Notes under the pieces: generated by a model
What the model saw: the letters and a program-made list of their open reading frames with translations, nothing else
Told to the model about the DNA's origin: nothing
The model's database searches: none
Virus record (IMG/VR): IMGVR_UViG_3300032296_001527
Span: 1-23,455 of that record
Source: a virus
Strand: one strand, 5' to 3'
DNA length: 23,455 bases
In this document: one piece after another, positions 3,607 through 6,196 of the stretch
Position numbering within the stretch: the first letter of the stretch is position 1
Layout of the letters: every line of letters starts with the position of its first letter
Program-made: the position numbers and the translations under genes

Positions 3607-3896
3607 GAGACTTCACTAAGTTCACCTGCTTCATCAGGGGAGTTCTTGAGACTGGATATGTCATTAAGCACTCAGACAAGCAGCTCCGGCATGATGTCAA
3701 GATGCACTTCAATAGGTTGCTTCATGAGGCTACTCAGTTTGAGAAGTTCTTGAAGGTTCAGCTAGGTGATGAAATGGCTGAGGCTGAAGATGCCATTAAC
3801 TCAGCTGTGGTAGACCTGGTCTGGCAGATTTTTGATATGAATGAGGAGCAGGTGCAGAAATTTTTTGATCACATTAATGCTTTTCAAGAAAAGTAG
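3603..3896 (+). CDS. hypothetical helical phage protein (97 aa)
   Basis: Starting at the ATG that overlaps the previous stop (ATGA, 3603-3606), the protein reads MRDFTKFTCFIRGVLETGYV and then appears almost entirely helical, with an acidic middle (DEMAEAEDA) and a final amphipathic helix (NEEQVQKFFDHINAFQEK). A TTG at 3588 could extend it by five residues but the coupled ATG is more likely. I do not recognise the family. It is the last gene before the non-coding stretch at 3897-4017 and so closes the first rightward cluster. Confidence 0.6.
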   Translation: MRDFTKFTCFIRGVLETGYVIKHSDKQLRHDVKMHFNRLLHEATQFEKFLKVQLGDEMAEAEDAINSAVVDLVWQIFDMNEEQVQKFFDHINAFQEK

Positions 3897-3897
3897 T

Positions 3898-3905
3898 TAA
3901 GTTTG
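3898..3905 (+). promoter_or_regulatory. -7 promoter box upstream of the structured RNA
   Basis: TAAGTTTG matches TAnnTTTG exactly and begins two bases after the preceding stop codon. The predicted start of transcription, 5-7 bases downstream, coincides with the first hairpin at 3910. No good -33 element is seen at the expected distance. Confidence 0.4.
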
Positions 3906-3907
3906 TA

Positions 3908-4017
3908 ATGCCGAAAGGCCGCTGGGTAGGAGCAGCGTGTTTCAAATTCTTTAATGTCCTTTGTCCGCTTAGTAGGGTCTCCTACCCCGAACGGCGAACA
4001 AAGGATTTTTTATTTTT
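3908..4017 (+). ncRNA. candidate structured RNA with possible loop-loop pseudoknot and terminator
   Basis: This gap between coding regions folds into successive helices. Hairpin A is GCC-GAAA-GGC (3910-3919). Hairpin B has stem CGCTG/CAGCG (3920-3924 with 3933-3937) and an 8-base loop GGTAGGAG. That loop is perfectly complementary to CTCCTACC at 3979-3986. A long outer stem pairs TCCTTTGT (3957-3964) with ACAAAGGA (3998-4005) and is followed by T6-A-T5. Inside it, GTAGG (3972-3976) can instead pair with CCTAC (3981-3985), so the loop of hairpin B and this strand compete for the same partner. It may be a free small RNA of about 100 bases or a leader controlling the genes from 4018. I matched it to no known RNA family; a pistol-type ribozyme shares a hairpin-loop pseudoknot but the remaining core does not fit. 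Confidence 0.5.
3957..4017 (+). terminator. intrinsic terminator, possibly conditional
   Basis: An 8-bp stem (3957-3964 with 3998-4005), extended past a C/A mismatch by about four more pairs, is followed by TTTTTTATTTTT (4006-4017). It sits directly against the ATG at 4018, so full termination would silence the replication genes unless it is bypassed or they have another promoter. Confidence 0.55.
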
Positions 4018-4191
4018 ATGCATTTAGTTTTTAATGAATTAAAAATTGACATCAGTTACAGTCCACAACTTAATAATGTCAAAGTTATGGTGTGGTTAGA
4101 TGAAGTTCTTGTTGCAGAAGGTATTTATGATAATTTCTTAGATATACCTTCAGTTGAACAAATTTTACTTGATAGTGGAATATATCTATGA
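4018..4191 (+). CDS. hypothetical small protein (57 aa), first gene of the replication block
   Basis: The ATG at 4018 directly follows the T-tract of the terminator, and the frame runs to TGA at 4189-4191, which overlaps the ATG of the initiator-like gene (ATGA). The product begins MHLVFNELKIDISYSPQL, contains VKVMVWLDEVLVAEGIYDNF and ends with a helix plus DSGIYL. It looks like a small alpha/beta protein with two or three strands. The stop-start overlap and the AT-rich codon use shared with the following gene support it as a real gene. Function is unknown; early translation through the structured leader could couple expression of the replication protein to it. Confidence 0.55.
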   Translation: MHLVFNELKIDISYSPQLNNVKVMVWLDEVLVAEGIYDNFLDIPSVEQILLDSGIYL

Positions 4192-4859
4192 ATGGCTATC
4201 AATTAACAGATGCTTGGTTTGAATTTAGATTTCAGCATCCGGATAAAGTTTCACATTCTCATACTGAGCTTTATTTCTACTTGGTTTACCATTGGAACAA
4301 GTTGAGCCAAAAAGAAAAATTTGGGTTACCATCTGCCATAACGATGGAGGCAACCGGAATAAAAAATTACAAAACTTATTCAAAGTGCCTTAAAGATTTG
4401 GTTGAATTTGGGTTCATAAGGATAGTTCAGGAAGCAATAAATCAGCATCAAGCTGTTGTAGTTGCTTGGGGCAAAAATACCAAAGCAGATACTGAAGCAC
4501 TGACAGAAGCACTGACTAAAGCACAGCATGAAGCACTGCCCCACATAGTAGAACTAAATAACTTAGTAACTAATGAACTTAAGAAAGAGAGCAAAAAATT
4601 TATTCCTCCAACTTATGAGGAGGTAGAAGCCTTCTTTCTTGAAAACAATGAGAGTCTAAATAATCTACCAAGGTGCTATCATCACTATGCTGATCATAAT
4701 TGGACAAATAGTCATGGTAAAAAAGTAAAGGACTGGAAGCGCACAATTAAAACTAATTGGTTCGGTAAAAACCAAAATATGACAAACCAATTCGTTCCGC
4801 CCGATCCACCGCCAGGAGTAAGCCGAAAATTTCACGAATCTTACAAACCTAATCAGTAA
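4188..4859 (+). CDS. replication initiator-like protein (winged helix, helicase-loader type)
   Basis: The 223-residue protein has an N-terminal region (about 1-95) with the pattern of a winged-helix DNA-binding domain: TELYFYLVYHWNKLSQKE, then SAITMEATGIKNYKTYSKCL and LVEFGFIRIV. A low-complexity linker of TEAL-type repeats follows (about 102-117). The C-terminal part (FIPPTYEEVEAFFLEN, then HHYADHNWTNSHGKKVKDWK and a W-containing helix) resembles the DnaD-like or replisome-organiser tail found in phage initiators, including the K-x-x-W-K-x-x-x-x-x-W ending. Such proteins bind the origin and help load the replicative helicase, encoded 5 bases downstream. The codon use is more AT-rich than in the helicase gene. 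The family call is moderate; the role is inferred mainly from context and layout. Confidence 0.65.
   Translation: MNGYQLTDAWFEFRFQHPDKVSHSHTELYFYLVYHWNKLSQKEKFGLPSAITMEATGIKNYKTYSKCLKDLVEFGFIRIVQEAINQHQAVVVAWGKNTKADTEALTEALTKAQHEALPHIVELNNLVTNELKKESKKFIPPTYEEVEAFFLENNESLNNLPRCYHHYADHNWTNSHGKKVKDWKRTIKTNWFGKNQNMTNQFVPPDPPPGVSRKFHESYKPNQ
4491..4538 (+). repeat. four 12-base tandem repeats (iteron-like) inside the initiator gene
   Basis: Units at 4491, 4503, 4515 and 4527 read ACTGAAGCACTG, ACAGAAGCACTG, ACTAAAGCACAG and CATGAAGCACTG. A decayed fifth unit (7 of 12 bases) lies at 4479-4490. They encode TEAL, TEAL, TKAQ and HEAL. An AT-rich stretch follows to about 4610. This is the arrangement of an origin inside an initiator gene, as in phage lambda O. 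Confidence 0.6.
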
Positions 4860-4864
4860 ACACT

Positions 4865-6196
4865 ATGACATTCGAAAATGAACAACTGGAAGCACAAGTG
4901 CTTTCCGCAATGATGCTGCATGATGATGAGAGGCTAACTGCTTTTACCATCCTGCCAAACATTGAGGTATTTCAAATTGCTAAACACAAGGTAATAGCAC
5001 AGGCCATCCAAGCCCTGCAAGATGCCGGAGAGCCTGTCAGCCTAGAGACAACAGTGGCAACCATTAAAAAGTCCAGCATGATCAAGGAGGCTGGAGGAGT
5101 AGCTTACATTGCCAAGGTTTTTGCCTCACTTAAAAACCCTGGTCATATAGAGTCACACTGCCGATTGCTCATTGAGCATTACCTAAAGGCAAAGGCCTAT
5201 TTTGTGGCATCAGACCTGTTTGCTGCTGCCAATTCAGAATCCGGTGACATATTTGACTACATAGTCAAACTCCAGCATCAACTTGATAACTTACTCAGCC
5301 AGCAAGTGAGCAAATCAGATGACTCCTTTGCCAACCAGCTTGACAAGTCAGCTAAGATATTCCTGAACAAAGCAAACGGTGAAATATCAGGCTACTCTAC
5401 TGGCATAAAAAGCCTTGACCATCTGTGCGGTGGGTTTGTGGATGGTGAGCTTACAATTGTCGGTGCTAGACCAGGGCAGGGTAAGACGGCTTTAGTAGTT
5501 AGCTTCATGCGAAACCTAGCCAAGCAAGGCATAGGCTGTGGCCTATTCAGCCTTGAGATGACCAAGCACGAACTTGTCCAGCGCATAGCCAGTCAGGAGT
5601 CTCAGGTTTATGCCTTCAAGATCAAGCAGGGTGATTTATCGCCACTTGACAAGACAGCACTACTTGATGGCATTAACCGGATGAAGCAATGGAACATCAG
5701 GATTCACGATGAAGGAAACCTAAACATCAGCAGCATCAAGGCAAAGGCTACCATCTGGAAAAACAAGTATGGCATAAAGGTCATATTCATAGACTACATT
5801 GGATTAATCAACTCCGTAAATCCAAAGGAGACTAACCGGGTTAATGTAGTGTCGGAAATAAGTAGAGGATTAAAATTACTAGCAAAAGACCTGCAAATGC
5901 CAATCATAGCACTAAGCCAGCTTAGCCGTAGGGTTGAGGAGCGCAGCGACAAGATGCCAATTATGTCAGACCTCCGTGAGTCTGGCTCTGTTGAGCAGGA
6001 TGCCGATGTTATCTGGATGATGATGAGGCCTGAGTACTACTTTGACAAACACAGCACTTTTAAACTTGGAAACCAGGAGTTGCCAAATGATGGCCTATGC
6101 CTGATTGATCAGGTAAAAATGCGCTCCGGTAGCACCGGAATAATACCTTTGCGATTCGATGCCCCACTAATGCGGATCAGAGACTACCATGATTGA
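4865..6196 (+). CDS. dnaB: DnaB-type replicative DNA helicase
   Basis: This 443-residue protein is a complete DnaB-family helicase, the hexameric motor that unwinds DNA at the fork. The N-terminal helical domain (about 1-110) begins ENEQLEAQVLSAMML and has the usual VSLETTVATIKK segment. The RecA-like domain starts near 178 with STGIKSLDHLCGGF, then Walker A GARPGQGKT (200-208), LFSLEM (227-232), Walker B VIFIDY (306-311), ALSQLSR (349-355), DLRESGSVEQDAD (369-381) and the RSGSTG segment (420-425). All key nucleotide-binding residues are present. At 443 residues it is near normal length. It follows the initiator-like gene and its end overlaps the next gene by 8 bases, forming one replication operon. 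Phage DnaB proteins usually act with a loader, probably the upstream gene. Confidence 0.93.
   Translation: MTFENEQLEAQVLSAMMLHDDERLTAFTILPNIEVFQIAKHKVIAQAIQALQDAGEPVSLETTVATIKKSSMIKEAGGVAYIAKVFASLKNPGHIESHCRLLIEHYLKAKAYFVASDLFAAANSESGDIFDYIVKLQHQLDNLLSQQVSKSDDSFANQLDKSAKIFLNKANGEISGYSTGIKSLDHLCGGFVDGELTIVGARPGQGKTALVVSFMRNLAKQGIGCGLFSLEMTKHELVQRIASQESQVYAFKIKQGDLSPLDKTALLDGINRMKQWNIRIHDEGNLNISSIKAKATIWKNKYGIKVIFIDYIGLINSVNPKETNRVNVVSEISRGLKLLAKDLQMPIIALSQLSRRVEERSDKMPIMSDLRESGSVEQDADVIWMMMRPEYYFDKHSTFKLGNQELPNDGLCLIDQVKMRSGSTGIIPLRFDAPLMRIRDYHD

Follow-up and report, generated by a model that had tools for sequence, protein, structure and literature searches.

A conserved structured RNA with complementary loops and a predicted terminator upstream of phage replication genes

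Results

The intergenic region and its neighbouring genes

The sequence analysed is a viral stretch of 23,455 nt (IMG/VR record IMGVR_UViG_3300032296_001527), referred to here as the window; all features described are on its + strand. The gap at 3898-4017 is intergenic, between an ORF of 102 aa that ends at 3896 and an ORF of 57 aa (4018..4191) immediately 3′ of the RNA described below. The 57-aa ORF has no assigned function and no PHROGs or Pfam matches, and in relatives a variable small gene occupies its place. Downstream are genes for an O-like replication initiator (4188..4859; PHROGs phrog_18020, E 4.6e-5, and phrog_8102, E 5.3e-4) and a DnaB-like replicative helicase (4865..6196; phrog_19, E 1e-84). 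Within the initiator gene are four iteron-like 12-bp repeats of about GAAGCACTGAC (4479..4538), which, by comparison with lambda O, likely mark the origin.

Elements of the RNA in the window

The gap begins with TAAGTTTG (3898..3905), which by sequence is a -7 promoter element of the Bacteroidota type, with the consensus TAnnTTTG (PMC6847099). Relatives found by pattern display the box likewise 4 bases 5′ of the first stem, and it conforms to the sigma-ABfr -7 consensus TAnnTTTG, with the exception of loci L028-L030, which deviate (TATTATTG). Of 54 distinct upstream sequences, 17 have a -33 TTTG at the usual spacing, 25 bases 5′ of the box; the window has no clear one.

Hairpin P1, GCC-GAAA-GGC (3910..3919), is at the predicted 5′ end of the RNA. 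It is found in classes A-C (defined below), where its stem covaries as GCC/GGC, GTC/GAC and GGC/GCC and its loop is GAAA or TTAG; it is missing from the members in cultured phages. P1 is followed by hairpin P2, CGCTG[GGTAGGAG]CAGCG (3920..3937), with the loop GGTAGGAG at 3925-3932, and by a variable A/U-rich linker (3938..3956) that is weakly conserved in class A. The terminator stem P3 (3957..4005), assigned from the RNAalifold consensus and pair counts, consists of an outer pairing of TCCTTTGT (3957-3964) with ACAAAGGA (3998-4005) and an inner pairing of CGCT (3966-3969) with GGCG (3993-3996). Inside P3 is a conserved AGUA/GAA internal loop (3971-3974 / 3989-3991), which looks like the loop-E (sarcin-ricin) motif. 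The stem is capped by the apical hairpin P4, GGG[TCTCCTAC]CCC (3975..3988). The loops of P4 (TCTCCTAC) and P2 are complementary: GTAGGAG of P2 (kissing strand 1, 3926..3932) pairs with CTCCTAC of P4 (kissing strand 2, 3979-3985), and the complement of the full 8-base P2 loop is CTCCTACC (3979-3986). P3 is followed by a T-run (4006..4017) directly 5′ of the ATG at 4018. A stable stem and then a T-run has the form of an intrinsic terminator; P3 is paired in 98.8% of cells in the alignment, and the T-run is seen in every member shown.

The initial annotation of this gap had proposed a -7 box, two hairpins and a terminator whose T-tract adjoins the ATG, i.e., an RNA with its own promoter and terminator ahead of the replication genes. 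These features are found in the sequence at the coordinates given here, and covariation in relatives supports the structured RNA. It should be noted that the window sequence on its own is suggestive and no proof: CTCCTACC arose in 16 of 20,000 dinucleotide shuffles of the 77 bases downstream, and the single-sequence fold is only moderately better than that of shuffled sequences (z = -1.96). The proof is supplied by the relatives.

Relatives, classes and loop diversity

Relatives were gathered by a pattern scan for both complementary loops and by a helicase-based scan, and further ones by scanning viral contigs for TTTGCnnnGCCGAAAGGC, a criterion that does not involve the loops. About 45 distinct sequences have, in the terminator region, 6-9 bases that pair perfectly with the P2 loop. 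The loop variants include GTAGGAG, GTAGAGG, GTAGCGG, GTAGCAG, GTCGCAG and GTCACAG, as well as TACGACC, TTGCGAAC, TGCAACC, TGGAACC, TAGCACC and others. Altogether the architecture is kept in more than 50 distinct viral-contig relatives plus cultured phages, with more than 20 different loop pairs. The 74 pooled matches (subfamilies and cultured phages) contain 33 loop strings, some of which are one loop cut at differing lengths, and the frequency of the loop GGTAGGAG is biased because the locus set was partly selected by it. A first structural descriptor was too loose, with 161 matches against 65 in a reversed control; a second gave 104 against 26. The top score in the control was 23, and therefore descriptor matches scoring 22-23 were accepted only with supporting context. 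At least one of the 74 pooled matches (L139:6381) is probably due to chance.

The relatives fall into subfamilies with the same plan. The AGUA/GAA internal loop is found in classes A and C, class B has a UGAU/UGAU internal loop, and none is evident in E; class C has an additional hairpin, P5, beside the kissing strand. Most contigs have one copy. Four contigs carry both a class A and a class C copy, separated by one small ORF, and the loops of the two copies in the same phage are unrelated.

A divergent type is found at L226 (complement, near 189) and L236:4539, with GCCGAAAGGC and then CGGG[ACTGGAAAA]CCCG; its 3′ part is much longer, and its loop partner is just ~5 bases (TCCAG). Matches to the GCCGAAAGGC pattern in genome contigs were rejected as chance-like, those examined being without a complementary loop and terminator. 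A viral contig of 69,098 bases (G020) has class C RNA matches at either end, which is consistent with a terminal overlap or with a repeat that breaks the assembly. A search of 396 Flavobacteriales genomes with the class A model alone, under stricter filters and with no positive control included, gave no host-borne element.

Covariation of the stems and of the kissing helix

In the alignment of class A (20 sequences), 99.3% of cells are paired, and 13 of 30 pairs show changes on both sides. The covariation score of 0.31 compares with 0.11 for shuffled alignments and no more than 0.06 when the partners are slid. The shuffle control ignores relatedness and the slid control retains it, and both lie far below the observed scores. 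Double compensatory changes are found in 4 of the 5 pairs of the P2 stem. The P4 stem, complete in all 20 sequences, covaries as GGG/CCC, GAG/CTC, AGG/CCT and CGG/CCG. The kissing helix (3926-3932 with 3979-3985 in the window) is 100% paired in 20/20 sequences, with 4 of its 7 pairs doubly changed. Class C (15 sequences) gives a similar result: 99.8% of cells are paired, the covariation score is 0.357 compared with 0.111 shuffled, and the kissing helix is 100% paired with 3 of 6 pairs doubly changed. Covariation in the two classes, which were aligned independently, extends to P2, P3 and P4 as well as the kissing helix. RNAalifold, when run without a supplied structure, returns P1-P4 as assigned. 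Thus the RNA in the window is a member of a conserved RNA family. The pairing of the P2 loop with the terminator loop had been pointed out from the window alone, with the statement that homologs lacking compensatory changes would speak against it; such changes are present, and favour the structure.

The same annotation had also noted that GTAGG (3972-3976) can pair locally with CCTAC (3981-3985), and had read the two pairings as a mutually exclusive on/off switch. The local pairing is possible in the window, but it is complete in just 3 of the 20 class A sequences, compared with 20/20 for the kissing helix and for P4, and AGTA (3971-3974) belongs to the conserved internal loop. The kissing pairing and the terminator stem are compatible and form together, so there is no either/or switch. 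No conserved pairing that excludes the terminator was found, GTAGG/CCTAC being the sole candidate examined. Thus the RNA, its loop-loop contact, promoter and terminator are supported, and the switch is not.

Placement before replication genes

At 69 of 75 sites the gene 3′ of the RNA, either the next one or the one beyond a single small ORF, belongs to the initiator cluster. Several of the sites are overlapping loci from the same contig, and of the remaining six most are at contig or locus ends. After the initiator, DnaB or a primase-helicase of 620-650 aa comes next, and the genes upstream of the RNA fall in many clusters. The RNA is present in every helicase relative for which ~1 kb of upstream DNA is available. 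Subfamilies among the GGTAGGAG loci also precede initiators (of two protein clusters), directly or one gene off. An ORF starts at a median of 12 bases past the stem (range 7-79) in 74/74 descriptor matches, and at 7-21 bases in 65 of them. In L093, L112, tooticki and morran, a further A/T-rich leader is found between the T-run and the start codon, and the T-run is retained.

Exceptions to the initiator placement are copies 5′ of a NUMOD4-HNH endonuclease gene (L077, tooticki, hemulen) and of a ParB-like gene (L052), so that these too precede ORFs. Those at NUMOD4-HNH genes in tooticki, hemulen and L077 are second copies of the RNA. NUMOD4-HNH genes of different phages (L077:7499, L368:932, L379:1597) bear their own unit of kissing hairpin and terminator, as if the unit travels with this mobile gene.

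The RNA class changes 9 times on the initiator tree (shuffled mean 12.4) and 14 times on the helicase tree (shuffled mean 18.5). Thus the RNA class is often exchanged relative to the initiator, and recognition of the RNA by the cognate initiator is therefore unlikely. Class A and class C RNAs are also interchanged at one locus, downstream of a shared gene (L017, L022 and L245 compared with L031 and the window), a sign of module exchange.

Members in cultured phages

A nucleotide search of cultured phages gave no relatives, and the cultured members were reached through the initiator protein. The element is found in the Flavobacterium phages tooticki6-1, hemulen9-1, morran9-1, elemoA_7-3A and 11b, in Polaribacter phage Danklef_1 and in Olleya phage Harreka_1. 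In Cellulophaga phage phi19:3 it was recognised by eye, with a weak P2 stem. The loop sequences of the cultured phages are unrelated and the layout is kept; between tooticki and morran there is a compensatory change in both loops (GTGAGACG/CGTCTCAC and GTGAGAAG/CTTCTCAC, respectively), and AGUA/GAA is retained in 11b and Harreka. The element is absent 5′ of the initiator in Riemerella phage RAP44 and in one faecal contig, and was not found in the crAss-like phage phi38:1.

In morran9-1, the annotated ORF morran91_gp042 (L369:1885-2028; MN812219 14157-14300) overlaps the RNA and its terminator and is probably spurious. The same phage displays an Rfam DUF805b RNA (RF02914, 52 bits) at L369:566-600, just 5′ of its ParB-like gene.

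Discussion

Possible role of the RNA

The structure and its conservation are observations, and it is from these that we infer a function. The initial annotation had left two options, a small RNA or an attenuator, and these are still the right two. We lean, though only slightly, towards the second: the RNA may be a promoter-proximal, cis-acting transcription gate of the replication operon, composed of a promoter and a terminator that is stabilised by the kissing pairing. Host RNA polymerase would initiate a few bases 3′ of the TAnnTTTG box, and P1 and P2 would fold in the nascent RNA. The apical loop of the emerging terminator would then pair with 6-8 bases of the P2 loop, and transcription would be ended at ~100 bases by the stem of the terminator and its U-run. 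The same fold would block read-through from co-directional upstream genes. The initiator and helicase genes would be reached by read-through transcripts only, and expression of the replication genes would therefore be low or conditional. The kissing pairing may aid termination in vivo, or the folding of the terminator, and the gate may be modulated by a phage or host factor.

The observations that speak for a gate are the promoter box, the fold, the covariation of the kissing helix, the T-run, the nearby start codon and the placement before initiators. Since the T-run abuts the first ORF, with little or no room for another promoter, the replication mRNA must cross the terminator, whether it comes from the RNA's own promoter or from upstream genes. 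As a counterpoint, a perfect terminator by itself would shut the operon off, and neither a conserved antiterminator pairing nor a regulator was found.

The short 5′ end and the 5′ hairpin fit a stable small RNA too. Such an RNA of ~100 nt would stand alone, with its own promoter and terminator, and act in trans on a host or phage protein or RNA, the neighbourhood of replication genes reflecting module linkage. The -7 box 4 bases before the 5′ hairpin, the strong terminator and the mostly single copy per contig suit this reading, and the AGUA/GAA loop, which recurs in class A, class C, 11b and Harreka, points to a shape that is recognised. However, the unpaired bases differ between classes, which argues against seed pairing with a foreign target; moreover, the T-run is directly followed by a start codon, and the RNA stays beside initiators in phages whose neighbouring genes are otherwise unrelated. 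A trans-acting small RNA is thus considered unlikely, though it should be kept in mind.

The gate reading can be extended to a new type of element, an intrinsic terminator that requires kissing between its apical loop and a hairpin upstream. Across Bacteroidota phages it would serve as an exchangeable gate in front of replication initiators and certain mobile genes, with the loop sequence as a specificity code between co-infecting phages. In this full form the proposal is speculative, and we regard it as quite unlikely.

The diversity of the loops could also reflect self-control or immunity similar to that of the CI RNA of P4. The terminated RNA would pair, through the same loops, with the nascent leader of a sister genome and enforce termination there, the loop sequences defining specificity groups. 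In agreement with this, both loops are perfectly complementary in every aligned member of classes A and C across more than 20 loop sequences, and the two copies in one phage carry unrelated loops. Yet intramolecular pairing appears sterically possible and should win, and neutral compensatory drift explains the diversity equally well, so that this role, as judged from sequence, is very doubtful.

Still more improbable is a reading in which the 5′ structure serves chiefly to stabilise the mRNA of the replication genes or to adjust how the first ORF is translated, with the U-run as an unstructured ribosome entry region and no terminator: translation in Flavobacterium depends on low structure around the start (PMC6847099), and the start codon is mostly 7-21 bases past the stem, but stem and T-run have the textbook form of an intrinsic terminator and the T-run is retained where an A/T-rich leader intervenes.

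Other candidates were rejected. An antisense-controlled attenuator of the pT181/pIP501 type is not indicated, as an antisense TAnnTTTG is found in 1 of 74 elements. A riboswitch would have a conserved unpaired ligand pocket, which is not seen, and the internal loop varies among subfamilies. In nearly all class C members ATGAARA is present close to the end of the linker (e.g., L017, about 2643), and a leader peptide starting at this ATGAAR was considered; this short ORF is not conserved, because the start codon is missing in L162 and L173 and the frame is shifted in L007.

A covarying RNA before the initiator in unrelated, partly cultured phages is a concrete regulatory element, and to our knowledge replication control in Bacteroidota phages has hardly been studied. 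The RNA also accounts for a stretch that annotators left empty or gave a probably spurious ORF, as in morran9-1. If the loop-loop contact drives termination, this would be an unusual attenuator design, and the loop diversity would open the question of phages recognising each other's RNA.

Comparison with known systems

The RNA had been called undescribed, and this agrees with searches of Rfam 15, where no family matches the RNA in the window or members of the other classes at the gathering cut-off; the best sub-threshold match is 23.2 bits (cut-off 60) and on the opposite strand. No description of the RNA was found in the literature covered, which takes in few of the subscription papers. As far as checked, a terminator that kisses an upstream hairpin within one RNA, with covariation showing its conservation among phages, is a new form of attenuator-like element.

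In its layout the element resembles leader attenuators and RNA immunity leaders that are already known. The rep leaders of pT181, pIP501 and pAMbeta1 consist of a promoter, a structured leader and an intrinsic terminator, followed by the replication initiator gene, with control exerted by an antisense RNA of the other strand. The phage element is similar to pT181 and pIP501 in the predicted terminator within the initiator mRNA leader; it differs from all three in that no conserved antisense -7 box and no swap between terminator and antiterminator are seen. The P4 CI RNA and the P1 c4 RNA are small RNAs from the leader of replication (P4) or antirepressor (P1) genes, with a loop complementary to a leader segment, and bring about premature termination. 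The RNA described here is likewise leader-derived, and one of its loops is complementary to part of its own leader; however, the complement is in the terminator loop of the same RNA, and separate target copies are not seen.

Loop-loop pairing of ~7 bases is used in replication control by ColE1 RNA I/RNA II, where kissing joins two RNAs, whereas the kissing of the phage element is within one RNA. HK022 put RNA and lambda nutR-tR1 are promoter-proximal RNA structures that, together with a terminator, precede the replication genes of a phage; put consists of two hairpins and lacks a loop-loop terminator such as that described here. The packaging RNA of phi29 (RF00044) is also a compact phage RNA with complementary loops, but the RNA described here does not match it in Rfam, is linked to replication and not to packaging, and has its terminator inside the element.
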